DNA from: Medicago truncatula
Lineage: Eukaryota; Streptophyta; Magnoliopsida; Fabales; Fabaceae
Length of the DNA stretch: 64,000 nucleotides
Direction: 5' to 3'
Assembly: GCF_003473485.1 (NCBI RefSeq)
Contig: NC_053043.1
Location: 31,782,576 to 31,846,575 of the forward strand
Below the pieces are notes generated by a model. The model saw only the letters and a program-made list of their open reading frames with translations, was not told where the DNA came from and did not search any database. Shown one piece after another: positions 3,855 through 57,300 of this stretch. Within the stretch, counting starts at the first letter, position 1, and every line of letters begins with the position of its first letter. Made by a program: the position numbers and the translations under genes.

Positions 3855-3856
3855 GG

Positions 3857-4324
3857 TGTATTATGCCATCCTCGACGATCTCCTAGGTGATGGCATATTC
3901 AATGATGGTGACCATGTTTTCTTCAAAAAAAAAATGATGATGACCATGTGTGGAAGTTTCAAAGAAATCTGGTAAGACCCGAATTCACCAATCCATTCAC
4001 CCTTGATCGCGCTTTTCAAGTCATGATTGAGGAGGTTGAAAAGAGATTGATTCCAGTGTTTTATTCATTCACACATGATGGGAGAGTATTTTACCTACAT
4101 GACCTGATGAAGCGTTTCTCATTCGGTGTCATGTGTCGCTTCTCCTTTGGATGGGACCCATACGCTTTACAGGCCGCCTTGCCACATTCGGATTTTGGCG
4201 AGGCATTTGACACCATTGTTCGGATTTCGGCTGAGCGAGCCTCGTCAGTTTCACCCTTGATTTGGAAAATCAAGCAGTATTTTAACATCGGGTCACAGAA
4301 GAAGCTCAAAGAAGCAATTAAAAT
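3857..4324 (+). pseudogene. Cytochrome P450 CYP94-type pseudogene, N-proximal fragment
   Basis: Conceptual translation shows AILDDLLGDGIFN, then WKFQRNLVRPEF, then RFSFGVMCRFSFGWDP and SAERASSVSPLIWKIKQYF. This is the order of blocks in the B-C to F-helix region of CYP94 enzymes, which hydroxylate fatty acids or jasmonoyl-isoleucine at the ER. There is no N-terminal anchor, I-helix, ExxR or heme-binding Cys loop. The frame breaks near 3910-3945, where a GATGRTGACCATGT segment is duplicated around an A10 run. The retrotransposon LTR ends 2 bp upstream and has removed or separated the 5' part. After 4324 the sequence turns to AT-rich noncoding DNA. This is clearly non-functional. Confidence 0.85.
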
Positions 4325-5196
4325 AAAAATTAATAAAAATATATTTAATGCTTTATAATATTTAACATCGGGTCAGTCTCATAAATGAATATAAATATAT
4401 TTAAAATAAAAATATATTTTAAAATAATATATATTGATATTTAATAAAATTAAAATTACACTAAATACTATATAATATTTAATGCTTTTGTGATATCACA
4501 AAGTTAAACAAATGCATTGCTATTTCATTTCTAGTGACGTGGCTCCTCATTCTCTCGCATGCACGCACGCGCGCGCACTCGTGCACAAGTTAGGCTAACT
4601 TTGACAAAATATAATTGAACTATTCAACGAATCTAAAAAGTAAAATGTTCTTTATAGTGACAAATTGTCATCATTTTTGTTGATCATACCAGTCGAGATA
4701 CACATGCTATAACACGGGTAGCGCGGAAACACAACGCAACAAAACGTGCATCGTTGTGCAGTAAGACATGCGCAAAGACATATATAGTATTGAATGATGA
4801 TATACAATTATTATATCATAAATTAATATATAATTTTATTTCTCACACTCATCGTGATCCTCTTCAAATTCTTTGAGAGGTGCACTTGTAATGTGTGTTC
4901 GAGCACTTGTATAACACGGGTAGCTACCTATGAGCTACCTATGTGTTCAAGCGGTATTTTAATATCTTGTCAAAGAAGAAGCTCAAAGAAGCAATTAAAG
5001 TGGTCAGGCGTGTATTGAAAAGAATTATCCAAAACCGCATGTCTCTTTATAAAAAGTCATTGCTATCAAATTAGTAGTGATGTTGCTCCTCGTTCTCTCA
5101 CACGCACGCATGCACGCGCACGCACATACACAAGTTAGGCTAACTTTGACAAAATATAAATTAACTATTTAATGAATCTAAAAAGTAAAATGTTTT
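4273..5196 (+). repeat. Diverged tandem duplication of the CYP94 fragment's 3' edge
   Basis: Copy 1 (4273-4643) and copy 2 (4951-5196) share the P450 stretch coding FNI..KKLKEAIK. They also share a downstream noncoding block containing GTTAGGCTAACTTTGACAAA and a run of CACGCACGC dinucleotides. Copy 1 carries about 190 bp of extra AT-rich sequence between the two parts, which is absent from copy 2. Confidence 0.75.
4951..5058 (+). pseudogene. Second CYP94 pseudogene fragment
   Basis: Translation gives RYFNI, a break, then KKKLKEAIKVVRRVLKRII and QNRMSLYK. It repeats the end of the 3857-4324 fragment and extends about 25 codons further into the F-G region of a CYP94 protein. It is part of the second copy of a local tandem duplication. 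There is no start, no later exons and no heme motif. Confidence 0.7.
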
Positions 5197-6113
5197 TTAT
5201 AATAACAAATACTTACATTTATTTTGTGGATCCTGTGTAAAAATATATACTTACATTTATTTTATTAATGTATACTACACACTCTCATATATTTTATTAA
5301 CATATAGTTCACAATATATTTTATAAATATACATCGACTTATCTTCCTAAAAAAACCATATGCATACATATATTTTTATTCATATATAATCCATAGAGTC
5401 ACATATATTTTATTAATATATAAATTCATAAATAAACATATATTGATATATTCTAGTAAAAAGAAAGATACCTTTACATATATTTGTATTGATATATCTT
5501 ACAAAATAAAAATAAATATTTATTACGAAAACATATAACATAAAGACTAATAAATAAATAAATCTATAAGAATTCTCTTTTTGACAAATTTATATGAAAT
5601 TTTATAAGGTGTTAGTTTGTTATATGGAGTATTATCAAACACCGATAAGTGAAAATTTTTTTTAGGGTTCATCCATTAAAATATTTTCAAATACTAAGTT
5701 TAATTTATTTATAAGTGATAAATATGGATCCCATGTAAAACCCTATACTTACATTTGTTTTATTAATGTATACCACATGCTCACATAATTTTTATTAATA
5801 TATAGTTCATAATATATTTTATAAATATACGCCGAGATATTTTCGTAAATTACAGTTGTCATTGAAAAAGATAACATGTTTTTGAAAAATTTATATTATA
5901 TTTGTTAAATTACAGTTGTTATTGAAAAAGATAACATCTTTTTTTTTTTTTTTGGGGTTTTTTACAATTTAAAAGTCATAAATATTTGTATTTATACTTT
6001 TAATCAAAATCAAAGTCAAGGCGCCGGTCATAACCTTAACATGCATCAAGCTTAAGGCGCCGTCTACGGTACGGAAACGAAACGTATTGTGGGCTAGCTG
6101 TAAACGAACTCCG
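5197..6113. other. Intergenic, AT-rich, no gene seen
   Basis: AT-rich sequence. An imperfect repeat of ACTTACATTTATTTTATTAATGTATA-like text occurs near 5210-5300 and again near 5740-5830, and a repeated TTACAGTTGTYATTGAAAAA occurs near 5850 and 5910. No open frame of interest. Confidence 0.6.
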
Positions 6114-18739: not shown

Positions 18740-19862
18740 GTGTTTGGTATGACGGTGACGAAAATTGATTTTGATAGAATTAATTTTGAGAGAATTGGTT
18801 TTGGTTAAAAGTCAGTTGGATGTGAATTGATTTATGTTTTGATACACTTAATTAAAATTGATTCTTACAAGTTGATGTTGTTTGGATTATATGAATCAAA
18901 ATTGATTTTAAATGTACAATGACCAAACTATCCTTTTGATTGTATTTAAAAGCAAATATCTCATTCACATTAGATAATTATTTCAGCTTATTATTGATTT
19001 TATTGATTTAAAAATTCATTTTTAGATAATATTAGTTTATAAGACTTATTTTTAATATTTATTATTTTTTTTTTTTATCAATTAGGTGATTTTTAATAGA
19101 ATATAAGCATCAAAATAATGCAATTAAAAGAGATACAATATGCGCTCCTTCAAAAATAAATAAATGCAGTTTATGTAAAAAAAAAAAAAAAAAACATTGT
19201 CCCAAATGGGTTTAATTATATAAATAAAATTTAACTAATAGTCAATGGAAAAAAAATTCTAGATAATCAACCAAAAACACCCCAACCCAACCCAATAGTA
19301 AAAAAAAAATCATGAATTAAAATTACGTCTTCAACGTGCCCCTGTCTTACATTTTCCAGAAGCTTGAATCCATTTCTCTACCATTTTGATCTTCTTCCCC
19401 ATCTCTCAACACTCTTCTCCCACTTCTCTTCCCCATATATCAACATTCTTATCTTATTTTACCATTTCTCTCAAGCTTAAAAGCAAAAAAAAACGAAATT
19501 ATATGGGTCTGGGAAAGAACAACATTCATCTGATTTAAGTGGTAGATATGAGACATGTGAAGAAGAGGAAGAAAGTTGTGGTGATTATGGATGTTGTGAA
19601 GAAGAAGAAAGCTGTTATTGAATAGGAAATCCAAGAAATTGTGGGTAATAAGGTAAATTTACATGTCAGCAGAAATTAACTATTTGGAATCGATTTTCCT
19701 TTGCCGCAGAAGCTCCAATTGCTTTGAAGTAACTCGCGTTTGGGGCTAAAATCACGTTTTCTAGAATTGATTTTGCAAGTTATCCAAACATCCATTTCAT
19801 GGCTCAAACCGCGTTTGGGACTGAAAAAGCACGTTTGGAGCTTGCAAACGTGCAACCAAACA
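18740..19862. mobile_element. Probable non-autonomous DNA transposon (TGTTTGGT ends)
   Basis: The left end TGTTTGGTATGACGG and right end CGTGCAACCAAACA are inverted at their tips. Near both ends are blocks of AATTGATTTTG and related text (left 18760-18905; right, inverted in part, 19690-19790). A poly-A run and Ser/His-rich noise fill the centre. No transposase and no secure target duplication. Confidence 0.4.
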
Positions 19863-25890: not shown

Positions 25891-27613
25891 TTTAATTTTT
25901 CCAGCTCCAAATCACTTGGCGCACTATCTTCCCTCTTTTTTTTTCCCAACTTTTTAGAAAATCCCTCCATCTTTTTCTTTTGTCTTTCTTTTCTTCTTAA
26001 CATAAAATAAAATATTTTTATAACAAAACATCAAAACCCTCACCGATTCATAGTCTTCAAACATTATCTCCAAGCTTCCAAAGTTCCAAACCTTTTCCAT
26101 CACTACCAAAACACCTTTCTTTTCACCGATTCATAGTCTTCAAACCATTCAATTCCTTCCTTATGCATTTTCGATTCATGTTTTTCAATTGATACCAAAA
26201 CCCTCAAACACCCAAACCCATTTGATTCCCTCAAACCTCTAAATTCCTAATCTTTAACCGATTTCAAAACCCTCAAACACCCAAAGCCTCATCTGTGGTC
26301 CCTGTCGAATTCTTCTCTCAACATTGTGAGTATGAAGTTTGCTTAATCTGAAATACCCAAACCCTCATCTTTGTATTATTCTTGATTTTAGTTCAGATTT
26401 TATTATAAAGTTCAGTTTTAATTATATGATTGAATTATTTATTGTTGTTGTGAATTTGTGTAGAAAAACTGAGGTTTGTGAAAAGAAACAAGCGGATCTA
26501 CTGTTATTTGAGGAGGTTTGCTGCCAAATCAGGAGGATCTAGAGTTGCAACCCATCACTCTTATTTGGTGAGGATATGAGTTATTTAAATTTCTTGTTTT
26601 GTTTGAGTTTTGTTTCTTAAAAACCAAATCAGGAATAATGAAATTTTTTTAATACAAGTTTTAATAATACGATGGATTTATCTTAAACTACTGTTATGTG
26701 AGGAGGTTTGTTGCTAAATTGCTTGTACACAACATAGATAGCAATTAGTTTAATAAATTAATTATTTGAAGTTTCAAAGCTCTCAGTATTATTAAACAAA
26801 GATGACATGATTCTAGAACCAGTAGTTGTGTTTCATGGATTTGGATATCATTGTATAGATATTACCTAGCAAGCAAAACACACTTTGTGAATTGTTTTGC
26901 CTTTCTTTTATGCATTGTATTGGTTTAGCAATTGTTGGGCTTAATGGATATGATATGCCTGTTCTGGTTATGTATTTTTGGTTACAAGGTTGGCATTTAC
27001 TGATGTTTTTTACCTCAATCTTTTTCTGCATTGTACTAGGCTGTTTGTGCCTGTTTTTGGTGGCTAAGTGGTGTTGTTTGGCTGCTGGTCCAGCAGAAGT
27101 GGCAGGCCTCTGTTGTTTTTCTGCTATGGTGAGTCTTTGCTGCGTCTTGGATTGCATTTTGGGTCCTTGAATGTGTTTTTTTTTGTGTTTTAGGCATGAT
27201 AGTAAGTTATGTAACAGCTGATGTTACTTGTTTGAGTGAAAAAAGGGAATACAAGGATTGAATAAATTAGATGAGCACCACCATTGTGTTGTGGCAGCTG
27301 CCATAGGCCAAATCATTGATTTTAGTTTCCTTGTGATTCAAATATACTTCAATTCATTCTGTACTATACTTTTAACACTTCATTTTCTGTTTGTCCCATA
27401 GAACGACTATAATTGTCAGCACATCAATCGCCGTTGCACCAAAATTGCCGTCTGAAATCTCAAAATTGTGCAGGAGGTATGAGATGCGTTCCTTGTACCT
27501 TTATACACTGTCTATATAATTCTATATCTTAATTCATCATCAGTGATTATTAAAATTTGGTAGTTACAAATCTTAAGATGCAATGCTTTAACATTTTTTT
27601 TTTTTTTGTAGTC

Positions 27614-30600
27614 ATGTCAATTGATAAATCATGGATTTGCAAACGACTAGGCACACCTGAGTATGAAAATGGGATAATTCACTTTTTGAATTTTGCATTT
27701 GAACATCAATCTGCTGATTTACTTACAATTAAGTGTCCGTGTTCAAAATGTGGTTTCAAGAAGGGGGGAACATGGGATGAAGTTTACATACACCTAAAAA
27801 ATAGACCTTTTCCAAAAAATTACAAAATTTGGACTTGGCATGGTGAAAGACCAAATGTAATCGCATCTGAGGCAGTTCAAAGAACCTGTGTTCCAGAAGA
27901 TACTTTTCAACCACAAAATCCAATGGAAAACATGGTCAATGATGCATTTGGAATTGGTCGAAACAACCTGGATGATGCTGGTCCATCCTCTGTGCATAAC
28001 AATGAAGGGCGTAACTCGACACATGATGTAGACGATGTCGAGATTTATGAGTTGTTAAAGGAGGCAAATGAAGAATTATATGAAGGGTGTACAAAGTATT
28101 CAAAATTGTCATTTATAGTTAAATTGTATCATATAAAGTGCTTGTGTAGAATGAGTGACAAAGCCATGACTATGATTCTTGAATTGTTAAAAGATGTGTT
28201 CGGAGATGCAAAGATTCCTAATTCATTCTATGAGGCTAAGAAAATCATCAACAAACTTGGTCTTGGTTATATTAAGATACCTGCTTGCCCAAATGATTGT
28301 ATGTTATATTGGGGTGAAGAAAATCAAGAATTGGAAGAATACAAAATATGCAAGACATCTAAGTGGAAGGATAACAAGAAGAAACAACCTGCAAAGATAT
28401 TGCGCTACTTTCCACTAAAGCCAAGATTGCAAAGGCTATTTATGGGTTCCAAAATCGCAGAGTCTATGAGTTGGCATGCATTGGATGGTAACCAAGATGG
28501 GCTGATGCGACATCCTAAAGATTCCGAGGCATGGAAAACGTTTGACTTACTTCATCCTGAATTTGCAGCAGATCCTCGAAATGTACGACTTGGCCTATCC
28601 ACCGATGGCTTTAACCCTTTTGGAGTTATGAGTTCAAACTACAGCATTTGGCCGGTGGTTCTTATCCCATACAATCGCCCTCCATGGGAGTGCATGAAGC
28701 AAACATCAATGATCCTTTCCATGATCATTCCTGGGAAACTAGCCCCGGGAAATAACATTGATGTGTACTTACAACCTCTCATCAAAGAGTTGAACGAAAT
28801 GTGGTATGATGGAGTGCGTACATTAGATTCATCAAAAAATGAAATGTTTACGTTGAAGGCAGCTGTGATGTGGACAATTAGTGACTTTCCAGGGCTTGGT
28901 ACTTTATCTGGGTGGAACACATACACTGGTTTAGCCTGCCCCACTTGTAAGTTTGAAACAGATAGTTGTAGACTAAAGAATGGTAGGAAATGATGTTTTA
29001 TGGGTCACCGGCGATTTTTAAAAAAAGATCATAAATTTCGATTGAATCGGTCTCGTTTTAATGGAAAATTTGAGGAAAGGGAACCCCCTTCAACTTTGTC
29101 TGGGTTGGACATATTAAATCAGCTTAAGAACATTGATGTTACTTTTGGGAAGGAGCCAGAATCTAATGATAAAGGTAAAAAATCTCGAGGAAAGAAACCA
29201 GTTGAAAAAGGAAAGAAATCAGTTGAAAAGGGAAAGAAACCAGTTGAAGAAGGAAAGAAGCCGGTTGAAGAAGGAGATAGACCAATTAGAAAAAGAAAAA
29301 GACCAGTTGGAAAAAAAAAAAGACCAATCGAAGAAGAAGAAAAGCCAACAATTGAAGATATTAAGAAACAATGGAGGAAGAAAAGCATATTTTTTGATCT
29401 TCCTTATTGGGAGTCTAACTTATTGCGTCATAATTTAGATCCAATGCACATTGAGAAAAATGTATGTGATAATGTTGTATACACTTTGCTCAATGATTCT
29501 GGGAAATCAAAAGACAATCTTAATGCTCGGAAGGATCTTAAAAAAATGCGTATAAGGAAGGATCTTTGGCCTGATGATAATGACAAATTTCGCCCATCTA
29601 TATTTACGATGTCAAATTCAAAGAAAGATGTCTTCTTACAAACTTTGAAGAATACTACAGTGCCAGATGGGTACTCAAGCAATATCTCAAGGTGTGTTGA
29701 CTTAAAAAATCGTAAGCTTTTTGGAATGAAAAGCCATGACTCTCATGTTCTTATGGAGCAATTACTACCTTTAGCAATACGAAATGTCCTACCAGACAAT
29801 GTGACTGCAGTGTTAATAGAGTTGTGTTCATTCTTTCGTCAATTATGTGCCAAGAGTTTGAGTCTCTCGGATCTTGATAGGCTCCAGGATCGAATTATTC
29901 TCACTCTTTGTCACTTAGAAATATTATTCCCTCCTTCGTTCTTTACAATCATGGTTCATTTGACCATTCATCTTGTGGATGAAGCAAAACTTGGAGGTCC
30001 AGTACACTATCGCTGGATGTATCCTATTGAAAGGTAAACAATATGCTTCTTTTTTAGACTATTATTTTAACCCCCTTTGGCTGATTCCAATATACTAATT
30101 TTCAATTCCCTCTCTAGGTATTTGGGACACTTAAAAGGCTATGTTAGGAATAAGGCACAACCCGAAGGTTCTATTGCTGAAGGATATGTTGCTGAAGAGG
30201 CTCTCACCTTTTGCTCTCTATATGTAGAAGGGATTGAGACTCGAATCAATAGACCTGCACGTGTTGATGATTATCCTGATGATAGCGCTTCATCACGTAC
30301 ATCTACAATTTTTCCACCAATGGGTAAAGCAGTAGGAGCATTCCAAAGTTTTGAGCTATCAGATATGGTGAAAACTCAAGCACATCGTTATGTGTTATTT
30401 AATTGTCCACAAGTCAAGCCTTATATAGAGTGAGTACCTCGACGATTCGTAAATGATATCAGATTTGTAAAGACACATATATATATATATATATATATAT
30501 ATGTGATATTAAGAATCGTAAATTGATATTGATTGTTTATGTAGTGAATTTAAGGACTACTTGTGGAGGCGATCTAAGGGACGTAGACCGACAACAACAG

Positions 30601-31369
30601 AGATAGAGAAAATAGTAAATAAAGATTTCATGGACTGGTTTCCTCGAAGGGTAAGGATAAATATATAATAAAGTTGTTGCTGGTCATTTCATGGATGTTT
30701 ATAAATTTATGAAAGTTCTATGACATTCTTTCATTGTCATTTTAGATTATGAACCCCGACATATCAAGTACAATACCAGATGATCTCAAGTATCTTGCAA
30801 AAGGCCCATCAACACAAGCTAGAAGATGTTCTGCATATAATATTAATGGATTCAAATTCCGAACAGTTGCATGAGAGCATGGATTTAAAACCCAAAACAG
30901 CGGAGTTTATTTAACATCTGCAACATCCTGTGTTGCTAGCAGTGCAGATGGAAATGTTAGAGAAGCCGATTTGTTATATTATGGAAAATTACAAGATATC
31001 ATTGAGCTTAACTACTCTGGTTTTAAAGTTACTTTATTCAAATGTACATGGGCTGACACAACTACAGATAGGGGGTTTAAAAAAGATGCATGGGGTTTCA
31101 GTTCCATTAATTTTTCCCGAGTGATTCACACAGGTGATCGTGAAGATCATGATCCGTACATTGAGGCTTCACAAGCGCAAATGGTCTATTATGTTAATGA
31201 TGAGCTGAGTAAAGACTGGAGTGTTGTTGTCCATTTGAAGCCAAGAGACTTGTATGATATGGGAGAGCAAATAGATACTGAAATTTGTCCCGATCAAGAC
31301 TTTAGTCAATTTTTTCAAGACTCTGATGATCTATCTTTGATAAGGGAGGACGCAGATGATGAGGAATGA
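27614..31369 (+). pseudogene. CACTA transposase (TNP2-type), two in-frame stop codons
   Basis: Inferred exons are 27614-30033, 30118-30429, 30545-30650 and 30746-31369. All junctions are GT/AG and keep frame for 1153 codons. Domains in order: transposase-associated zinc domain (residues about 3-78, MSIDKSWICKRLG and CPCSKCGF); TNP2 core (about 230-610) with LGLSTDGFNPFG, whose Asp is likely catalytic, and LRHNLDPMHIEKNVCDN; a lysine-rich 7-residue repeat insertion (about 519-580); DUF4218 (about 705-860); DUF4216 near the C-terminus. The start is the Met just after a TTTTTTGTAG acceptor. TGA codons at 28991-28993 and 30872-30874 interrupt otherwise clean frames. The second sits where the family has Arg (VARE), fitting a CGA-to-TGA CpG decay. 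The protein would bind element ends and cut DNA in the nucleus. As read, it is disabled. Confidence 0.9.
29168..29352 (+). repeat. 21-bp coding minisatellite in TNP2 (KGKKPVE repeats)
   Basis: About eight degenerate 21-bp units encode a 7-residue repeat of the form (E)KGKKPVE, drifting to RKRPV and EEEKPT. The unit length is a multiple of three, so the frame is kept. It falls between TNP2 blocks where other members have only a short basic linker. Confidence 0.85.
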
Positions 31370-38717: not shown

Positions 38718-40286
38718 ATAAGTGTATTGTCAAGAAAATAATCCAAAGAATTGATATGTGATTGTTTTATGGGTTTTACTTTTCCCACCCTACCCATTTC
38801 TCGCGCGTCCTATAATTTTTACAAAAAGTCCATGTGATTTTCGGATTTTAAAATTCGAATTAAGTTTTTCTTCTCTTATGGGGTGGAAAAAAAAAATAGT
38901 TTTTCACTAATTCAGATTTTACAATCCAAAAACCTCAAAAAATAAGGTGTGTTCCTTGCTTTTTTTGGATTATAGATCCAAACACCCTTTTTCAGGGAAA
39001 AAATAGTTCGGGTTATATAATTCGAACTGTATCAGCATACATTATGAATCTGTTTGTGACATGGATAACTAGTTTAATGACCATATTAATCTTGCTAACT
39101 CTCATCCTTTTGTTTTAGGTAATTGTTAGTTGTTCTTAGTCAAAAATCTAGTTTTCGAGCTACTTGATCAGATTCGTCCGAAACTTCCCCATAAAATCAG
39201 AAGAAAAAAAAATCATGGATCAAGACTCCCATAGAAGGAACTTCTTACGAGATTTCGCCCCTCAAAATCCAAAATCTCACGTTTAGATCCAAAACTGTTG
39301 AAATGAGGGAGATTCTGATCGCTGTTTATATATAATAATATTTCAAATATAAGATTTCAGCGGCAGTTCAGCTAGGTTTCAACGGCAGTTAACTGACGTC
39401 GGTTAAATTTCAACGGTTGTTAACTACTGTTGCAATCAATTATGCAGACAATAAGTTTTGTTTTAGAACCAAGCTAAAATTTGAAATATTTATTACCTGT
39501 AATTCAAAACAACAATTTCAGAGGTAGTACAACCTATACACCGATTGTTTTACAAACAACCTTCTTGCTGATCTAGCACATTTTAGTCCTTGTAAAAAAA
39601 TTGTTTTACAAACACCCTTCTTGTTGATCTGGCACATTGTAAGGGTCGACGACGACCAAACCCTTTATTAGGTTATTATTCATTTTGATTTTCTTAGTTG
39701 AAAAAATTCACAAGAAGATTGAAGATAAACAAAACTCAATTTATGGGTGCACTCGACACTAACAAAGAAGAATATTGAATCGAAATGATTCGAGGAATCA
39801 TGAAATTAAAAAAAAACCCAATTTAAGTGTTCATTTTTTAAAATAGAATATTATAATTAAAATAAACAAACCTAAGTTTCTAATTTATTATTTTATTTTT
39901 GAAATGCCATGTGTATTAGTTCTGCATATTCGTCTTGTGCAACATCGGCCAAAATGAGCCAAATCAGCAAGAAACTAATCACAAGAATTTTTCTTAAACA
40001 AAATTGTTACAAGGACAAATTTTACATATTTCAAATTTGTCTTACACGAACCAAATACAAATTTTAGCTTTTTTTTTTCTTCCTGAAATGAAGCTATAAT
40101 ATTGCTCAATTGTAACCTTAGGTTATTATGCCTACCTTCCCAACATTTACATAAGTCACCTATGTAGTATCCCAACGGATGGTCAATTTCCAATGAGAAG
40201 ACTTAACCCTAACATGAAAAAAATTTCACATCAAAGTCAATTCAATGCAGTTCCAAATTACAAAGTTTTAAAAATTGGTAATCATA
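38718..40286. other. Intergenic, repeat debris, no gene seen
   Basis: Contains a direct duplication of about 60 bp (TTGTTTTACAAACA...CTTCTTG, about 39548 and 39600) and a short block of CAACGGCAGTTAACT-like repeats near 39360-39440 that resembles a transposon end. The 72-codon ORF at 39975 has no family features. Confidence 0.5.
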
Positions 40287-40432
40287 CACCCTCCGGTCAC
40301 TATTATAAGCAAAAAATCATATTGTAGGTTCATTCATTAAATGTTGTATGTAACCTAAATATAGACCACATACAATATTTAATGAATGAACCTAAAAAAT
40401 GAATTTTTGCTTATAATAGTGACCGGAGGGTG
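40287..40432. mobile_element. Stowaway-like MITE, CACCCTCCGGTCAC family (146 bp)
   Basis: The termini CACCCTCCGGTCACTATTAT and ATAATAGTGACCGGAGGGTG are perfect inverted repeats flanked by TA. A second copy lies at 44885-45031. The TA target and CTCC-rich tips fit Tc1/mariner MITEs. Confidence 0.85.
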
Positions 40433-43080
40433 TACATATTAGTAGTTGTGTTCCCGAAATGCATCACTTGATTGATCCATGTTACAACAAATCATTGCCT
40501 TCAAGGAGTCAACCTAGTCTCTTTCACATAATTGAAAAACATGTTGCAACCTTTGCTCAAACTTTTGCAATCGGTGTTGATGCTCAAACTTTCTACAACT
40601 AGATAACTTACTCTTGCATGTCCTTCAAGAGACACTGCTTGCATTTTTCATCAACATTTTTGTCTATGTGAAACCGACAAAGCAAATTAAAAGAATGGTT
40701 TTTTCAACATGTGCAAATTTGTCCAGGTTAAGAAGTTTAAAATAGTAACTTTGACTTAAAATTTATATTTTTTATATTAAATATGTAACTTTTAATCAAT
40801 AATTGTTGGTTTTAATAAAAAATTACTACTTTTAGTTACCTTAACATGTGCAATATTGCACATGTTAGACAAACCCTTAAAAGAATATGGGAATACAAAA
40901 AATTAACTACTATAAATATAATTTGATTTATTAGAAAAACTAAAATATAATATTTCTAGTAGCATTTAATGAAAATATCAACATTATCAGATTTAGGAAA
41001 GATATTTCACCTGTATGTAATTACTTATGGCACATTATTTTGTTGAGATTAAGTAAAAATTTAAAATATTCCAAGTATTTATACATTTTGTCATACAAAA
41101 AATGTATCTAGACAAAATCTGAAACTTTTAATTTATTTTTTTGTTCAAAGAAATTGCCTGAAACTATTCCTTTAAAAAGGAAAAAAATATGATGCGGCAA
41201 TTAAGCCTCATAAATTTGCTAGTAAAATCCTACAGCTTGTTTTTATACAGGATTTGTCAGCTTTTTTTTAAAAAAATAAAATTGAGTTAAAACTCCTAAG
41301 CAATAGTACTCCATGATACAACCATGATTACACCAACCGATTGCCTTTGAAAAAAATATATTGCACCAATTACCACAAAAAACTAAGATTACATCTATTT
41401 TTTGAAGAAACTAAGATTACATTCATCAAATTCAAAATTCCTAAGTATATGACTGTTTTTCTCAATATTGATATATACCTCGTAACCAAGCACAAGGTGT
41501 GCTTGAAAATAACTTAATAAATAAATAGTATCTCACATTCATGCTATCCTAATGTTGAAATTGGTCTTAGGTGTAGTATTGGATTTATTGAGAAAGGTAT
41601 GTGTACGTCTCTTTTTGACTTCTCCCAGCCTGCGAAATTAAAAAACATGAAATAAGTTAGAACAATTGTTGGATAGCATGATAGACGAAAAGTGTAGAAA
41701 CATGGTTTGGTGTTATTGACATCAACAGTAGACATAGTGGAAAAGTCAAGAGAGAATGAGGTAAATGATAAACTTCATCATCAAATATTACAGAATGATC
41801 ATAAAAGGAATGAGATTAGTGTTGGTTATTATATAGGTGAAAGGGAAATTAGGATGATCTTTTTTTTTTTTTTTGTTACAGGGCTAAACGGAATGATCTA
41901 AAATGTAACATCTCTTTAAGCTTTATGTGGAAGAATGTAAACATACACATCCAATGATGATGGTGTAAATAATATAGCAATAATTCATCATGCATTTTTT
42001 TTAAAAAAAAAAAAAAAAAGGAGTGGAAGAAGTTATTATAAGAATGAAGGATTTGGATGGTTTTGTTTGTGCCGTGACAGTTTGTTGTAATTATTAAAAT
42101 AATTAGACTTTTCACCCGTGCTACCGCACAGGTTATATACATTGTAGATGTAGTAGACAAAAACAAATTTCAATGCATATCAAAGAGAATGAAATATGTG
42201 GTCTCAAATATATACAGATGTTGGAATTCGAACCTCAGACACCACACTTATTCACCTTAAAAATATTAATTTTTATCAATCGTGTGTTACTTCATTCTTT
42301 TGTTAAAATTATATGTCAATGTTATATTATTGGTATGTTACTTCATTTTTTTATTTTTTTTTGACAAAATGTTACTTCATTCTTTTGTAAAAATTATATG
42401 TTAATGTTATATTATGTACCTAAAAATAACTCATTCTTAACCTCAACATGTAAAATGTTTTATTTAAATAATTTTCATTTTATCGAATATTTGGTCTTTA
42501 CCGTAAATGATACCCTTTAAATGTTTGTTGAAATGTTTCTTCCACCTGTTATATAGATTGCAAAATTCTGGTGCATTTTGTGGTAGATATTTAACAAAGA
42601 GAGTTCAGTTCTAATTTGGATGAAAAGTGTAATATTAACAAAAAAAAATGTTGCTATAATCTTTCAAAACCCTTTTATTCCAATAGGGCGATTTGTTTTG
42701 AAGAAATAGGGGAAATAAAGCGATGCCGATTTGCTTTGTTCATGAAAATAGGAGATTGGGTGTGAGCATTAAGGTTAAAACAGTAAAATTATGCAATAAG
42801 GTTTAGGTTAAAATTAGGGCTTACGGGTTAACTTTAATATATAAGAAGATAATATTTTTATTTTTTTTAGGATAAAATAATAATAATGTTAAGTTACAAT
42901 TCCCTTCCTATTCTTAGTGGCAATTGATTAGTATAACTCTTTTTTATCAAAATTATATATTATGGGTTGAATGAACGACGCATAAGCAAAGTAGAGAAAT
43001 GATTAAGAATAAAGTTAAGAAGGGGTTATTGATTTATTTGTGAGGTGACATGTAAGTAAAGTGTAGTTTAGAATATATGT
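40433..43080. other. Intergenic, no gene seen
   Basis: AT-rich. A hairpin-forming CCCGTGCTACCGCACAGG lies near 42115, just before a partial reversed SINE-like fragment (42215-42262). GTTACTTCATTCTTTTGTTA is repeated near 42288 and 42371. No coding blocks. Confidence 0.5.
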
Positions 43081-43658
43081 GTGTGCGCGCGCGTGTATAT
43101 ATATAAGAGATAGATACAAATCAATATATATTTATTGAAATTTCATTCATTAATATACTTAATTCTTTTTTTGGTTACAATTAATATATACTTAATTCAA
43201 TAATGTTTTTCTCAACAAGATTATTTTATTTTAATAAAATCTTCAATTATATTTGGGAAATTAATTACACCTACTTCTCATTTATATTAAAACAGCTTTT
43301 TGTACAATTGAGAAGAGATATGTGCAACTAATTGGTATAACCCATTTCATAATCAATCATTGTTTCTGTTTTAAAAAAAAAAAAAAAAAAAACAGTTGTG
43401 TTATTTAAACTATGTGTTATTATTACATTTTTTTTTATGCTTAAAAGTTTATATGAGTTAGATTTCAGATCTCACTAGAATCAATGTAGATCTCAAACCT
43501 CATTGACATTTAGAGTTGAATCTACAACTTTATAGATAAATGAACTTCTTATCAATTAAATCAATTGTCCATTACATATATTTTTTAGTTTGAAAAAGTT
43601 TGTCACTATGTTTATTTAACTTTATATCTAATTTATTTATTTTTATCTCTGAAACTTG
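43081..43658 (+). repeat. Direct repeat, left copy (about 575 bp)
   Basis: Aligned by eye with 45841-46415 along its whole length. Both begin with a GCGCGCGTG run and TATATATAAGAGATAGA, and both end TTTTATCTCNGAAACTT. Divergence is roughly 10% with small indels. The two copies bracket the CYP94 inverted repeat. Confidence 0.85.
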
Positions 43659-43660
43659 TT

Positions 43661-43867
43661 CCTAAAATATCAAAAAGGAAAACAATCTTTCAGCATTCTT
43701 GGAGATCTCCTAGGCAAGGGGATCTTCGTTGCATATGGCCAACAATGGAAGTTTCAGCGGAAGATGTCATCCCTCGAGATCGGAAGTCTAGCCATCCGCT
43801 TGCATGCCATGGACCTCGTTTCTGAAGAGATTAGATCAAGGCTGATGCCTTTATTGGGTATCAATCA
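43661..43867 (+). pseudogene. CYP94 fragment, sense arm of the hairpin
   Basis: Translates as YQKGKQSFSILGDLLGKGIF, then GQQWKFQRKMSSLEIGSLAI and EEIRSRLMPLLG. This is the CYP94 region after the first N-terminal beta segment (block with DGxxWxFQRKMxSxE). It is one of two near-identical arms of an inverted repeat and cannot encode a P450. Confidence 0.85.
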
Positions 43868-44093
43868 CTTGTTTGTTTTGATCCACTGATTAATACCCAA
43901 TAAAGGCATCAGCCTTGATCTAATCTCTTCAGAAACGAGGTCCATGGCATGCAAGCAGATGGCTAGACTTCCGACCTCGAGGGATGACATCTTCCGCTGA
44001 AACTTCCATTGTTGGCCATCTGCAACGAAGATCCCCTTGCCTAGGAGATCTCCAAGAATGCTGAAAGATTGTTTTCCTTTTTGATAATTTAGG
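43661..44093. repeat. Long perfect-length inverted repeat of CYP94 coding sequence (207-nt arms, 19-nt loop)
   Basis: Arm 1 is 43661-43867, the loop is 43868-43886 (CTTGTTTGTTTTGATCCAC), and arm 2 is 43887-44093. The arms differ at five positions and have no gaps (about 97.6% identity). Transcription from either side would give a near-perfect 207-bp hairpin made of CYP94 exon sequence, the structure expected of a hairpin-siRNA or young MIRNA locus. No promoter has been identified. That it is expressed or processed is inference. Confidence 0.9.
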
Positions 44094-44290
44094 AAATTGT
44101 TTTTTAGGATGTGCTCGACATTGCTGGGATTTGAGGTGATTACGTTTCCTAAGACATGCAGGTGTACAGTTCCAGTTGATGATCTTTGCAACTGGTCAGT
44201 GACAAAGTCGACTAGATTTGTAAATGTTTTCCTCCATGACTTTGAAACGTAAGGGAGGCAAACGGCACACTTACAAGTTGGTTTGTTCAA
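43887..44290 (-). pseudogene. CYP94 N-terminal fragment, antisense arm and extension
   Basis: The minus strand reads FTNLVDFVTDQLQRSSTGTV, HLHVLGNVITSNPSNVEHIL, then the same segment as the sense arm. It therefore covers CYP94 from the proline-rich/first beta-sheet region to about residue 150 of the family, and extends about 200 nt beyond the hairpin arm. It lacks the N-terminal ER anchor; its upstream text (MNKPTCKCAVCLPYVSKSWR) matches the family only from about SWR. Confidence 0.85.
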
Positions 44291-44311
44291 CTATCCAAGT
44301 GATTGATATCC

Positions 44312-44519
44312 ATCACTCCCGACCTCCGTTCTTGCTGATGCCTTTGATCTTTGTTCAAAGGTAACAACAGAACGAGCCCTAGTTGTCTCCCCATTATATT
44401 GGAGACTTAAGAGGCTCTTAAATATTGGGTCGGAGAGAAAACTTAAGGAAGCTTTGAGTGTTGTAAATTTATCTGCTAAGGCTATGATAAAAGAGAGACA
44501 CAGACTCTTTATTATGTAG
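44312..44519 (+). pseudogene. CYP94 fragment, downstream piece in sense orientation
   Basis: Translates SLPTSVLADAFDLCSKVTTE, RALVVSPLYWRLKRLLNIGS and then ERKLKEALSVVNLSAKAMIK to a TAG at 44517. This is the CYP94 F-G region, the same region as the pseudogene at 4190-4324. The segment between it and the hairpin arm (C-helix to E-helix) is missing. It was probably part of the same gene copy before the inverted duplication. Confidence 0.85.
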
Positions 44520-44632
44520 TTTTAATATGAGCAACTCTTTATTTCTCAGGATGATACAACAGATCGCTAAATTAATAAATAAGTTATATATATGTATTCA
44601 AAAACATAAATATTATAAAAAACATAGTATAC

Positions 44633-44635
<3 letters not shown>

Positions 44636-44712
<77 letters not shown>
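44636..44712. repeat. (TA)n microsatellite
   Basis: About 38 TA units, adjoining an inverted-repeat arm (44713-44830) whose partner (45668-45787) is followed by another (TA)n. Confidence 0.95.
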
Positions 44713-44714
<2 letters not shown>

Positions 44715-44830
44715 AGGGATATATTGACTCCAAGAGTAAGTATAAAGAGCTACTCCACATCCTCACCCTCCATTTTATCTAAATTTAATGGACTAGATTT
44801 AATTCTTATTAATAATCATGGGATCTCATA
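44713..44830 (+). repeat. Inverted-repeat arm paired with 45668-45787
   Basis: GGAGGGATATATTGACTYCA, ACTCCACATCCTCACCNTC and GGACTAGATTTAATTCTTAT occur here and reverse-complemented, with minor changes, at 45668-45787. Together with the flanking (TA)n runs they form a large inverted pair around the MITE at 44885. Confidence 0.75.
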
Positions 44831-44884
44831 CCTAATCATTTTCACAATATTAATTATGATTTCCTTCTTTTGATTTAATAAATA

Positions 44885-45031
44885 CACCCTCCGGTCACTA
44901 ATATAAGCAAAAAACTATATTCTAGGTTCATTCATTTAATGATGTATGTGGTCTATAATAAAGACCATGTGCATCATTAAATGAATGAATCTAAAATGTA
45001 AACTTTTGCTTATAATAGTGACCGGAGGGTG
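44885..45031. mobile_element. Stowaway-like MITE, CACCCTCCGGTCAC family (147 bp)
   Basis: Same termini as the copy at 40287-40432, flanked by TA on both sides. The middle differs (ATGATGTATGTGGTC...). Confidence 0.85.
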
Positions 45032-45667
45032 TATTAATAAACTCATGAGGAGATTTTTTAGTTCATCTTCCTCCTTTCGACGGCTAACCTTACGTTACCA
45101 TACTGTTAACACCATTCATAAATTAAGTCTTGTCTAAAAACTTCATAGAAAAAGAACATATTTTAAAAAATTTAATTTATAGCTTTTCATCTCCACGAAA
45201 GAAATAGATAAAAAACAACATGTCTAACTCAAATTCATAGGCATGGTCAAATTTAATTCACAACTAGCATTAGAAATAAATAAGTCCACCAATCGATGGA
45301 TCAATCCTCAAAAAGAATAAAATCCACAATAACAATCATTTCTAGAATGTGTGCGTGGATAATAAAAAGAAATACATCTATGGAAGCCCATAAGCTCATT
45401 GACTCATTCTAAAAATCACATTAATAATGGGTATTAGGGAAAATATATGTAGTTTTGACTTTGGATTGTGAACCGTGAAATAGTTGTCGAGAAGCTTCTT
45501 TTGATATTGTTTATGAAAATATTGCAGAGGAGATGAATTTGTAAGGAGTAATTAAGAATTAGATTTTCTTTACAAATTTACTAATAGTTTAATTGTGTTT
45601 ATAAAAGGTAAATATTGATTGAGTCAAAAGAAAAAACGGTAATTAATTATGTGAGATTAGTTAAGGT
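45032..45667. other. Spacer inside the rearranged cassette, no gene seen
   Basis: AT-rich unique-looking sequence between the MITE and the second inverted-repeat arm. No coding potential. Confidence 0.5.
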
Positions 45668-45784
45668 GAATGAGGTCACATGATTATTAATAAGAATTAA
45701 ATCTAATCCATTAAATTCTGATAAAATAGAAGGTGAGGATGTGGAGTAGCTTTTTATACTTACTCTTGAAGTCAATATATCCCT

Positions 45785-45787
<3 letters not shown>
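45668..45787 (-). repeat. Inverted-repeat arm paired with 44713-44830
   Basis: Reverse complement of 44713-44830 with minor changes. It runs directly into a (TA)n tract (45788-45840) and then the right direct repeat. Confidence 0.75.

Positions 45788-45840
<53 letters not shown>
45788..45840. repeat. (TA)n microsatellite
   Basis: About 26 TA units followed by GCGCGCGCGTGCGTG at the start of the right direct repeat. Confidence 0.95.
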
Positions 45841-45845
<5 letters not shown>

Positions 45846-46415
45846 CGCGTGCGTGTATGTATATATAAGAGATAGAGACACAAATCAATAGATATTTATT
45901 GAAATTTCATTCATTAATATACTTAATTCTTTTTTTGATTACAATTAATATATACGTAATTCAATAATGTTTTTCTCAACAAAATTATTTTATTTTAATA
46001 CAACCTTCAATTGTATTTGGGAAATTAATTACACCTACTTCTCATTTCTATTCAAACAACTTTTTGTAAAATTGAGAAGAGATATGTGCAACTAATTGGC
46101 ATTTGAGTATATAACCCATTTCATAATCGATCATTGTTTCTGTTTTAAAAAATCAATTGTGTTATTTAAACTATGTGTTATTACATTTTTTTTATGCTTA
46201 AAAGTTTATACGAGTTAGGTTTCAAATCTCGCTGGAATCAATATAGATCTCAAACCTCATTGATATTTAGAATTGAATCTATAACTTTATAAATAAGTGA
46301 ACTTCTTACAAGTTAAATCAATTGTCTAATACATATAATTTTTTAGATTGAGAAAGTTTGTCACTTTATTTATTTAACTTTATATCTAATTTATTTATTT
46401 TTATCTCAGAAACTT
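45841..46415 (+). repeat. Direct repeat, right copy (about 575 bp)
   Basis: Partner of 43081-43658. It lacks the A19 run seen in the left copy (near 43374) and contains a few extra bases (CATTTGAGT near 46102). Confidence 0.85.
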
Positions 46416-46904
46416 ACTAATTTAATAAAAAAGATCATGCTCACAAATGTTTTAAGGACATTGTTTAAAATATCTATACAATTTATTTTTGTTTTGTAAA
46501 TACACTGCAAAAGTATTATTTACACTTCTTCAAAAAAAGAAGAAGGTATTATTTACATAATTTTATGTACATAAATTATCACTTTTAATTGCTTAAACAA
46601 TGTTTAAGACATTTGTTAACAAAAAGATATATTTAACAACAATACCTTGAAGTTATAGACTTTGATGGGTGTGACTAATAAGGGTATTATTGATATTTGA
46701 TGTTGAATGTCTGCTTCAGATCTTCCCAATCTTAATTAATATGTTGAGTACATTGAAATACATAACATGATTACACTTTCACTTCATCACAAAACCAAAA
46801 CTTGAGCTAATAGAGTGCTAAGATTCCTTACACCTTTCTGGTGCAGATCAGATCTTAAATTTGAGCTTCATTGGTACAAAAATTCAGAAAATCTGCACTA
46901 AGAA
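46416..46904. other. Intergenic, upstream of the COBRA-like pseudogene
   Basis: AT-rich with no coding blocks. It may hold the old promoter of the pseudogene. Confidence 0.5.
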
Positions 46905-47758
46905 ATGAAGTCTATATTGTTATCTACCATTGGATCTCGTCGTGGCTTTCTAGTTTTACTTTTTTTACTATTCTCTTCCTCCACATTAGGGTAAATATCT
47001 CTTTTCGTCCTTGTAATATTAGCGAATTCTGGTTTTAGTCCCTGTATAAAAAAAGATTTATATTTTGTCCCTGTAATTTCAGATTCTTTCACTTTTGGTC
47101 CCTCCTTTCATCACGTCAGCAGAATTTGCATAAATTACGTCCCTGTAATTTCATATTCCTCCACTTTTGGTCCCTCATTTTACGTGCCATGTATGCAGAT
47201 TCTGCTTACGTGGTGGAATGAGGGACCAAAAATGGAAGAATCTGAAATTACAGGGACAAAATCTAAATCTTTTTTTTCCAAGGACTAAAACCGAAATTCG
47301 CTAATATTACAGGGACGAAAAGAGGTATTTACCCTCCACATTATTCACTTCCACAGGTATTTTCTACTTCTTTTAAGTTTTCAAGTTATCATATTATACT
47401 AGTTATATACTTCTCTGAATTAATGAGTTCATATTTTCTGTTTTTCTTCATATATATGTGTTTTGCATCACAACTTTATAACTTTATGAAAGTGAAATAA
47501 TATATTCAACTAGTTTTTTGATGACCATTGTAGATATGAAAATTGATTTAAATAAAGTTAACATTTACGGTGATTTTATTTATTTATGGATATATGATGA
47601 AGATCTCTTTTACATCTTTTCACTTTTTTCTGTGAATGTTTGGTTCTCTAATTTGTAAAAGTGATTTTTGATTTACAGAAGCATATGATCCGCTAGATCC
47701 AAATGGAAATATAACAATCAAATGAGATGTCATGGGCTGGAATCCAGATGGTTATATT
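46905..47758 (+). pseudogene. COBRA-like (COBL) pseudogene, first two exons only
   Basis: Exon 1 (46905-46988 plus 47344-47356, split by a MITE) encodes a signal peptide, MKSILLSTIGSRRGFLVLLF with a hydrophobic run after it. Exon 2 (47679-47758) encodes AYDPLDPNGNITIK, stop, DVMGWNPDGYI. This matches the highly conserved start of mature COBRA proteins, GPI-anchored wall proteins that help orient cellulose. The TGA at 47723-47725 stands where the family has Trp. Exon 2 ends at a normal donor (ATT|GTAAGT), but no later exons (cellulose-binding region, CCVS motif, GPI tail) follow. It is truncated, interrupted and has a nonsense codon. Confidence 0.85.
46989..47334. mobile_element. MULE-type MITE with perfect 9-bp target duplication (346 bp)
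   Basis: The target duplication TCCACATTA lies at 46980-46988 and 47335-47343. The termini GGGTAAATATCTCTTTTCGT and ACGAAAAGAGGTATTTACCC are inverted repeats with one mismatch, and pairing extends well inward. The 9-bp duplication is the Mutator-superfamily signature. The element sits in exon 1 of a COBRA-like gene. Confidence 0.92.
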
Positions 47759-48539
47759 GTAAGTCTTCATAACTTCCTTAATTGTGCATGGAAAAACATT
47801 AAACACTTTGTGATTTGGATTCTTATATGGATTTTTCTCTATTGTCATACCTTTTTCAATCACGACATAAAACTTAAATGGTTGTCTGATTGGCTTAACT
47901 GGTTTATTATTGTTGAGAAGTCTCCCACTGAATCTGAAAATGAGTTTAATAGTGGGAAACATCTCTCTACAAACAAGCCGGTTTGTAGGGTTGAGTTAGA
48001 CTTGACCAAAAGTTTAAGATGGTATCAGAGTCTATCCAAGATCCATTGGTTCACCTACAATCAGTTTACTCGAATCATGCTCTAGATTTCTAGTTTTGGG
48101 TGTGAAATTAGATGACTTGAGATTTGGAAACTTTTATGGAACCATTAAGATCTATGTAAAGTGTTGTTTGCAAAAATGTAAAACTAGACTGTTTTAGCTT
48201 GATGGAATATTCTCTATTGCACATACCTTTTTCAATTAGGACTTAAAAGTTTTGATTGGATTAATTTGTTTATTATTGTTGAGAAGTTTCACAGTGGATA
48301 CAATACGATTTGAAAATGAGTTTATAATTTGGAGACATATCTTATCTTATAAGTTAGTTTTATAGGATTAGGTTAAGATGATATTAGAGTCTATTCAAAA
48401 TCTGTTAAGCCATCTGCTAGCGGACCACTTGGGTCATGCTCCAGATGTCTAGTCTCGGGCATGTAGCGAAATTACACGGTCTTGGTGCGTCTTTTAGATT
48501 TTTGAACTTAAAAATGATGATATGTCATATTTAAATTAA
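47759..48539. other. Intergenic with an internal diverged duplication
   Basis: Two related blocks share TGTTGAGAAGTYTCNCA, AATGAGTTTA and GTTAGACTTGACC/TTAGGTTAAGATG text (about 47900-48090 and 48210-48440). They resemble a transposon end read twice. No gene. Confidence 0.4.
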
Positions 48540-54182: not shown

Positions 54183-54317
54183 CACTACTAGAAAAAGCAA
54201 AATTAACGAGGGAAATTAGTGGCGGTAAAAATAAAATTCCTCACAAATTCATTGGTCGTAAAATTTAGTGACGGAATTAGAGAGGAATTTTACGTTTTTC
54301 CTCACTAATTTTTGTTT
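54183..54317 (+). mobile_element. CACTA element end, truncated by a LINE
   Basis: It begins CACTACTAGAAAAAGC, a typical CACTA terminus, and continues with short GGAATTT/AATTCC and TTTAGTGACGG-type repeats. It stops where the LINE begins, and no matching right end (TTTTTCTAGTAGTG) was found after 58114. Confidence 0.65.
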
Positions 54318-57300
54318 TTTGGTGAGAAGAGGGTGGAGATTCGTCGTTTAGTCCAAGAAAAGAATCCTTTTGTGGTGTGTATTCAGGAAACTAAGTTGAG
54401 AATGGTAGATGATTTTTTGATCAAATCAATTTGGGGTGATGATTCTGGTGGTTATTCTTATCAATCTTCCGTTGGAGCGTCTGGTGGCTTGATTACTATG
54501 TGGGATAAATCTCTTATTGATGTTCGGTCCTCTATGAGTTTTGCTCACGTCCTTGTTATTATTGGCAAAGTCATTCTCACAGGGGAGGATATTGTTGTTT
54601 TTAATGTGTATGCGCCTTGCGATAATGTTGTCAGAAAAGATTTATGGGAGCGGTTGGTACCTATTATTATTAGTAAATTTGATTCTTGTGTTTGTGTGTG
54701 TGGGGACTTTAATTCCATTAGAAGTGCTAATGAAAGAAAAGGTCGTGGCACAATTTTCAACCAGGTTGAAGCGGATGTGTTTAATAAATTCATTGCGGAC
54801 AGCATGCTAGTTGATTTGCCAATTTGTGGTCGGTTATTTACTTGGTACCGCGGTGACGGAGTTTCGATGAGTAGATTGGATCTTTTTTTGTTGTCTGATA
54901 AGTGGTGTGACGTGTGGCCAAATTGTATTCAGGTAGCTTATCAATGTGGTCTCTCCGATCACGTTCCTTTGATTTTACATGCGGATGATGCTAATTGGGG
55001 ACCTCGGCCTTTGAGGATGCTTAAATGTTGGTCGGATTATCCGGGTTATTCGAACTTTGTCCGTGAAAAGTGGAGATCTTTTGACTTGCAAGGGTGGGGC
55101 GGCTTTGTGTTGCGTCAGAAGTTAAAATTGTTAAAGAATAGTCTAAAGGAGTGGCACCAACAACATTCTCAGAACATGGAAGGTAAGATAACGGAGGTAA
55201 AAAAACGAATTTCTTATCTGGATTCGAAGGGTGAGACCTCCGCGCTCATTGAGGATGAGATGAAGGAGCTTCATGACTTATCGGCCAATTTACACTCAAT
55301 GGCTCGCATAAATAATAGCATTAATTGGCAGAAGGCTCGGATGCAATGGTTACAAGAAGGCGACGCGAATTCTAAATTCTTTCATGGTGTTATGTCTTAT
55401 CGTCGCCGACGTAATGCTATCAATATGGTGAATGTTGATGGGGTTAGTGTTGAAGGCGTGCCACAAATCAGAGCGGCTGTCTTTGCTCATTTTTCTTGTC
55501 ACTTTAAATCCTTGAGAATTGATCGGCCTAGTGTGGAGGGACTTCATTTTCAAAAATTATCTTTTCGCGAAGGAGGTCAGCTAACTAAACCTTTTTCGGT
55601 AGAAGAAGTAAAACAAGCGGTGTGGGACTGTGATAGTTACAAAAGTCCGGGACCGGATGGCATTCATTTTGGATTCATCAAAGACTTCTGGGACCTGATT
55701 AAGGATGACTTCATGAGGTTTATGGTGGAATTTCATCGTAATGGGAAATTGTCAAAAGGCGTCAACTCCACTTTTATAGCTTTGATTCCTAAGGTGGTAA
55801 GCCCGCAAAGGCTTAATGATTTCCGTCCCATTTCTCTGGTGGGGAGTATGTACAAGGTTCTAGCGAAGGTATTAGCTAATAGACTTCGTGCAATTATGGG
55901 AAGTGTGGTTTCCAATGCTCAATCAGCGTTTGTTAAAGGGAAGCAAATTTTAGATGGTATTTTGATTGCTAATGAAGTAGTGGATGAGGCAAGGCGTATG
56001 AAAAAGGAGCTTTTGTTGTTTAAGGTTGATTTCGAAAAGGCTTATGATTCGGTCGACTTAAATTATCTTGATTCCGTGATGACTCAAATGAACTTTCCAA
56101 CCCTTTGGAGGAAGTGGATTTCAGAGTGTGTGGGAACGGCGAAGGCTTCAGTCCTTGTTAATGGTAGTCCAACTGAGGAGTTTCATATAGAGAGAGGCCT
56201 TCGTCAAGGGGATCCTCTATCACCTTTCTTATTTCTGCTCGCGGCCGAAGGGTTCAATGTGTTGATGAATTCTATGGTGGGGGCGGACATGTTCAAGGGG
56301 TATGGGGTTGGCCGTGATGGTGAGGTACGGTTGACTCACGTCCAGTTTGCTGATGATACTCTCATAATTGGTGAGAAGAGTTGGTTGAATGTCCGATCTA
56401 TGCGGGCGGTGTTGCTTTTGTTTGAGAAGATTTCGGGATTAAAGGTGAATTTCAATAAGAGTATGCTGACTGGTGTTAATATACCAGCTACTTGGTTGGT
56501 GGAAGCGGCTTTGGTCTTGAACTGCAGAAAGGGGACTCTTCCTTTCCTTTACTTGGGTTTACCTATTGGTGGGGATTCCAGAAAGTTGAGCTTTTGGAAA
56601 CCGGTTGTTGGCTGTATTAAAGCTCGCCTGTCCTTATGGAATAACAAGTTTTTGTCTTTTGGTGATCGCCTGATATTGTTGAAATCTGTCCTGTCTTCGC
56701 TCCCGGTTTACTTTCTTTCCTTCTTCAAGGCCCCCGCAGGTATAATCTCTTCTATAAAATCTATTTTTAAAAACTTTTTCTGGGGGGGTGGTGAGGAAAA
56801 TAGGAAAATAAATTGGATAAATTGGGACTCTATTTGTAGTCCAAAGGAGGTTGGAGGGTTGGGGTGAGGAGGATGGGAGCTTTTAATTTATCATTATTAG
56901 GAAAGTGGTGTTGGAGGATGTTGGTGGATAAGGAGGGATTATGGTATAGAGTTTTAAAAGCCCGTTATGGTGAGATTGGGGGGAGGTTACAAGAGGGTGG
57001 GAGACAGGGGTCTTCGTGGTGGAAGATGTTGTGTCATATTCGTGATGGGGTGGGTGAGGGAGTGGGGAATTGGTTTGACGAGAACATTCGTCGAGTTGTC
57101 GGTGATGGTAATAATACTTTCTTCTGGTATGATAGTTGGGTTGGGGAAATGCCTTTGTGTACCAAATTTCCTCGGCTTTTTGATCTGGCTGTGAATAAGG
57201 AGTGTTCGGTGGGGGAGATGGTGACTTTAGGGTGGGCGGAAGGTGGGAGGGCTTGGGTGTGGAGACGGGGGCTGTTAGCGTGGGAGGAGGACAGTGTTAG

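Follow-up and report, generated by a model that had tools for sequence, protein, structure and literature searches.

Several described systems come close to the locus analysed here, and we compare it with them first. In the Allen model, the inverted duplication of a segment of the target gene is the proposed first step towards a plant MIRNA gene (PMC3237417, PMC10004981), and the MIRNA genes that arose in this way resemble our locus in that copies of a coding segment face each other across a short loop; they differ from it in that here no extant gene was found near enough to be a target and the parent was not found in the genome among the best candidates scored. In Arabidopsis, endogenous long hairpins feed DCL2, DCL3 and DCL4 (PMC4687873), and two of these, IR71 and IR2039, share with our locus a long stem that would be a DCL substrate if transcribed, whereas our hairpin is known from sequence alone. 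The CHS cluster of the soybean I locus (PMC3804491) and the maize/teosinte Tpd1 hairpin (PMC11390486) are alike in having a hairpin able to yield hp-siRNAs, and the latter is an example of what a hairpin with a target can do; however, both have matching target mRNAs, and here none was found among the 15 P450 loci scanned. Hairpins are also made by template switching between short inverted repeats with inversion of the loop (PMC8794818), and inverted-repeat template switching has been described in yeast (PMC8604942). The hairpins of the former study are similar to ours in the short imperfect inverted repeat that serves as the switch point and in the reverse-complement copy, but they involve tens of copied bases, whereas ours involves about 400 nt in a plant pseudogene with a loop inversion that we infer. 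The locus itself is not mentioned in the titles and abstracts, among the matches listed, of the literature on Medicago CYP94, young MIRNA genes, and P450 inverted repeats or pseudogene siRNAs, and the main text of a study of Medicago small RNAs (PMC4212123) contains no word starting with P450 or CYP. From its sequence, we suggest that the hairpin was probably born by template switching in a rearranged, truncated CYP94-type pseudogene of which we found no close second copy, and that the locus is best classed as a hairpin derived from a pseudogene, with an origin that is unusually easy to read.

The hairpin lies in a stretch of 64,000 nucleotides of Medicago truncatula DNA (the window), located at C2:31782576-31846575. 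Its parts, together with the P450 blocks and the copies of a flanking repeat (repeat A), are as follows.

43073-43657, + strand: repeat A copy 1, which ends where the left arm starts
43659-43867, + strand: left arm, equivalent to aa 92-157 of the nearest intact gene, plus about 3 codons
43859-43871, - strand: inverse of the 13-mer, at the hairpin tip
43868-43886: loop, 19 nt
43887-44095, - strand: right arm, sharing the reading frame of the longer reversed block
43887-44284, - strand: P450 block in reverse, covering aa 29-157 of the nearest intact gene, 0 internal stops
44296-44308, + strand: 13-mer CAAGTGATTGATA, at the junction before the third block
44310-44507, + strand: third P450 block, aa 206-271, forward (58% identity, E 4e-18 by alignment)
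45833-46415, + strand: repeat A copy 2, 88% identical to copy 1

The preliminary description had reported ungapped arms of 207 nt with five mismatches around a 19-nt loop, and this was borne out, the same arms really being 209 nt long. They align over these 209 nt with 0 gaps and 5 mismatches, at the pairs 43667/44087, 43734/44020, 43779/43975, 43797/43957 and 43862/43892. The predicted fold is a single long stem on each strand, with energies of -398.7 kcal/mol (+) and -408.9 kcal/mol (-) and z-scores of -43 (+) and -47 (-), and none of 100 shuffles of each strand folded as low. Perfect duplex is found in 114 of the 189 21-nt windows of the hairpin. The near-perfect duplex that had been proposed for a read-through RNA would hold as well, with 209 bp on either strand. 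Among the 23 rows of inverted pairs listed for the window, only runs of AT repeat exceed the hairpin in complementarity. For the control, we searched 210 kb elsewhere in the genome (21 stretches of 10 kb, one of them adjoining the window) with cut-offs of arms ≥ 80 nt, identity ≥ 85% and AT ≤ 0.9, and four rows passed, three (two of them overlapping) in one stretch, L019, and a single one in another, L021, none with more than 92% identity. Positions 4227-5389 of control stretch L021 form a palindrome with arms of about 590 nt that are 92% identical.

Some long-read library errors can make palindromes, and this is what would speak for reading the hairpin as an assembly or library artefact. We regard such an artefact as extremely improbable, because the arms differ at 5 sites, the right arm runs on in frame for 63 codons past the palindrome, and the left arm meets repeat A at a defined breakpoint. 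The mismatches had already been put forward as an argument against a simple artefact; we uphold this argument, and the context of the hairpin argues likewise.

The nearest intact relative of the locus is a gene of 502 codons at C4:27.97 Mb with a p450 domain (E 2e-67). Compared with this gene, and read in + orientation, the locus runs forward through aa 92-157, in reverse through aa 157-29, and forward again through aa 206-271. The reversed block extends the right arm 5'-ward to 44284, and its positions 44284-43898 are 62% identical in protein to aa 29-157 of the C4:27.97 Mb gene; both this extension and the third block are absent from the preliminary description. The minus-strand frame matches the Pfam p450 family with E 2e-4 and 20.6 bits, which is below the gathering score of 22.8, and its best match of solved structure is the P450 LUT5 (27 bits), while the third block alone (44310-44507) matched no Pfam family. 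An in-frame TGA lies just upstream of the third block, and the blocks themselves are without a stop. Nothing equivalent to aa 1-28, 158-205 or 272-502 of this 502-codon gene was detected at the locus, and with three genes as query (E 1e-3) no further pieces were found in the window, save the P450 fragments at 3933-5068. Since no other piece of the gene was found at the locus, the C-terminal part is missing, including the haem site that lies in this part of a P450. The locus thus combines homology to an intact gene with the loss of essential parts and of coding constraint, and its sequence features mark it as the truncated and rearranged pseudogene of an old P450 paralogue.

The arms had been described as CYP94 coding sequence. 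Their P450 origin stands on the Pfam match, the LUT5 match and the 62-65% identity to the intact gene, and CYP94 is a presumed family label. In P450 nomenclature, family membership means more than 40% identity to a named member. The closest company of the fragment is three intact genes, to which it is 54-65% identical. The CYP94 name fits in that most Medicago CYP94 genes are intronless (PMC8467197).

When the left arm was used as a DNA query against the whole genome (429.9 Mb, 42 contigs), only the two arms were present among the candidates scored. The genome-wide protein search with aa 29-157 returned 55 matches, among them two to the locus itself, and the best of the others is 65% identical; genome-wide uniqueness is meant here for the left arm as DNA and for aa 29-157 as protein. 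A close parental gene elsewhere in the genome was sought and rejected, as none was seen among the best candidates scored, the nearest having 65% aa identity. At the DNA level, the closest intact gene is 63% identical over 387 nt. A 16-row tree, in which the fragment fills only 37% of the columns, joined it to the C4:27.97 Mb gene with support 95/91, on a long branch (0.62 compared with 0.095). The reversed block has a pS of 0.79, at which synonymous sites are saturated, and a pN of 0.25, and the third (forward) block has a dN/dS of 0.165. The large excess of pS over pN in the one block and the low dN/dS in the other suggest long purifying selection before the break-up of the gene. The parent therefore probably stayed functional over a long period as a gene distinct from the paralogues found, and judging from these comparisons only its wreck remains in this genome.

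The differences between the arms tell of a later period. Four of the five are amino-acid replacements, and derived states are found on both arms, so there is no sign of coding constraint since the arms formed. Substitution rates of 7e-9 and 1.08e-8 per site per year are in use for dating, and with these rates 4-5 differences correspond to 0.9-1.7 million years; the inverted duplication is probably about 1-2 million years old.

Broken P450 fragments of another CYP94-like paralogue lie about 39-51 kb from the hairpin, at 3933-5068 (+) of the window and at C2:31775301-31778400, where there are at least three P450 fragments on one strand. Neither place was accepted as a local parent. The fragments at C2:31.775-31.778 Mb are 42-49% identical, and their longest frame groups with another gene (support 80/86, below the starred level); the fragments at 3933-5068, compared outside the tree, are nearer to a gene at C2:42.26 Mb (53%) than to the C4:27.97 Mb gene (44%).

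The junctions of the blocks bear on how the hairpin arose. The 13-mer CAAGTGATTGATA has no place in the window besides 44296-44308 and, inverted, 43859-43871, and a 13-letter match was seen in none of 2000 shuffles of the two stretches concerned (50 and 45 nt, picked after the match was seen). At 43862 the left arm has a C, in agreement with the complement of the leader 44296-44308, whereas the right arm strand has a T. Of the loop, only the first four bases recur elsewhere, within the 13-mer, and the spacer itself was seen nowhere else. A reverse-complement copy is thus accompanied by short inverted repeats at the putative switch points, namely the 13-mer pair and a quasi-palindrome, as is typical of template switching.

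We infer the template-switch path, the spacer and the order of events as follows. The parent gene would have lain on the + strand, and the hairpin would have formed inside the gene in a single episode of replication or repair during which the template was switched twice. The parental order would have been aa 157, GGGTATTAATCA, the 19-nt spacer, TGATTGATATCC and aa 206, where GGGTATTAATCA and TGATTGATATCC would constitute a 12-nt imperfect inverted repeat (the quasi-palindrome) around the spacer and act as the switch point. The growing strand may have jumped to the opposite template here, copied the spacer and then aa 157 to about 29 backwards, and rejoined its first template immediately ahead of aa 206. 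On this reading the loop would correspond, in reverse complement, to the parental spacer downstream of aa 157, and the C at 43862, which is the mismatch closest to the loop, may be a footprint of the switch. Such a pair of switches would leave the forward-reversed-forward order of the blocks together with an inverted 13-mer. The ancestral order and the spacer are read from the locus itself, in place of an outgroup or an unrearranged orthologue.

The same block order would also be produced in two steps, by a partial tandem duplication of the pseudogene and a subsequent 424-bp inversion between the inverted 13-mers, and it agrees with this path that the 13-mers bound exactly the segment whose inversion aligns all three blocks. 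However, it needs two events and a 13-nt inverted repeat that must pre-exist, and the C at 43862 is not predicted by it. We consider the two-step path possible, if not likely, and prefer the template switch.

Following the template switch, the left junction at 43657/43659 would be a later event, by which repeat A replaced the 5' part (aa 1-91) of the forward copy. A third long copy of repeat A, 77% identical, is located at C2:31.234 Mb, and the sequence after the end of A is common to copy 2 and this copy and is lost in copy 1 at 43657. Because copy 3 agrees with copy 2 in what follows A, we take copy 2 as uninterrupted and copy 1 as cut at 43657/43659. Provided that the template was the forward copy or its sister, the junction should not predate the hairpin, since the reversed block keeps aa 29-91 and the forward copy lacks them. 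The repeat A copies have diverged by 12% and the hairpin arms by 2.4%, implying that the duplication of A is older than the hairpin or that the arms were homogenised. The interval 43658-45832 is bounded by A as 88% direct repeats and contains the inverted pair 44658-44884/45613-45840. Capture by a transposon (an LTR-like element) was rejected, as A does not end as an LTR would and copy 2 continues into the shared sequence. No P450 sequence was found around the third copy of A (4.5 kb, two genes as query, E up to 1). The region 45957-47999 resembles C2:31.234 Mb over a 1-kb segment (73%) and further pieces (87-92%), the two places being about 0.6 Mb apart.

Whether small RNAs from the arms could act on CYP94-type genes was examined by target prediction, one of the checks that had been proposed for this locus. 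All 21-, 22- and 24-mers of both arms were compared with both strands of 15 P450 loci, using our own version of a TargetFinder-like scoring (mismatch 1, G:U 0.5, doubled at positions 2-13, no bulges). The 15 loci account for 17 of the 53 other matching places of the protein search, the ten best included, with C1:35.054 Mb and 35 weaker places left out, and the gene stretches scanned were 1.6-3.1 kb long, so that some gene ends are possibly cut. None of the 21-, 22- or 24-mers scored ≤ 4 against the 15 loci; the best score was 4.5, with five mismatched positions at one locus (L024), and the fewest mismatches of a 21-mer were three, at a score of 6.0. As a positive control, arm against arm gave a score of 0, and chance matches of 21-mers at ≤ 4 numbered 3, 4 and 1 in three tests on 200 kb of unrelated sequence. 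The 21-mers also had no match at ≤ 4 in the P450 fragments at 3801-5100 of the window in three of the four arm/strand combinations. The longest exact word shared by the hairpin and four intact genes is 11 nt, and no Rfam MIR family matched over the arms at the gathering score.

Extended similarity of the arms to an extant target gene, by which MIRNA genes of inverted-duplication origin are recognised, was not found. Because no arm k-mer scored ≤ 4, effective silencing of the CYP94-type mRNAs tested is unlikely, and with 63% DNA identity to the closest intact gene the suggested action in trans on CYP94 genes is left unsupported. The suggestion of a proto-microRNA fares little better: it has in its favour that an inverted duplication of coding sequence is just what the Allen model starts from, but no paralogue was found near enough to be a target, the best score of 4.5 compares with 1 to 4 matches at ≤ 4 that chance yields per test in 200 kb, and both the 11-nt longest word and the Rfam result speak against it. 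We therefore hold a proto-microRNA or trans-acting locus directed at CYP94 mRNAs to be extremely unlikely.

A different possibility is that the hairpin may be an endogenous inverted-repeat siRNA locus, transcribed and diced by DCL2, DCL3 and DCL4, with DNA methylation in cis or unrelated transcripts as the targets. Such a role is compatible with the pseudogene origin. The hairpin does have the long near-perfect inverted repeat that characterises endogenous hairpin-siRNA loci, its 209-bp stem would form from either strand, and siRNAs of this class come from very long stem-loops in Arabidopsis with no need of an RDR (PMC4687873). On the other hand, no CYP94 target was found in the loci tested, and structure alone is a poor predictor, because other long AT-rich inverted repeats exist in the window and in the control stretches. 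A read-through RNA would pair almost perfectly with itself and could serve as a DCL substrate, with no matching CYP94 transcript among the tested loci. We consider this siRNA role unlikely, and from what the sequence offers a genomic fossil is a more probable reading of the hairpin than a regulatory RNA gene. By analogy with the teosinte Tpd1 hairpin, one could also imagine an orphan silencing hairpin, whose parent CYP94 gene, seemingly lost from this genome, may persist in other Medicago accessions or relatives; the arms would match it there almost perfectly, and hp-siRNAs could silence it in crosses, leading to RNAi incompatibility or drive; we rate this as very unlikely. If the locus is read correctly, it would represent the first step of the inverted-duplication route with the likely switch point and breakpoints still legible and the parent gone. 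It would also illustrate that a hairpin made of gene sequence, however striking, does not have to be a regulator, and that a target test should precede any assignment of function.

Several other features were observed in the window. Rfam MIR5284 matches at 47143-47253 (+) with 123 bits, within the inverted repeat 46988-47335, a palindrome that is perhaps a MITE. MIR2593 matches on both strands at 44901-45015, within the palindrome 44871-45045, perhaps also a MITE, with related copies at 40284-40441. A match to MIR5272 is located at 18816-18889 (+). MIR2593, MIR5284 and MIR5272 are Medicago families. Transposase_21 and DUF4216 matches at 27554-28990 (+) and 30875-31366 (+) form a combination that is presumably that of a CACTA-type element, and an open frame of 852 codons at 54309-56864 (+) encodes a LINE-like reverse transcriptase with an endonuclease domain.
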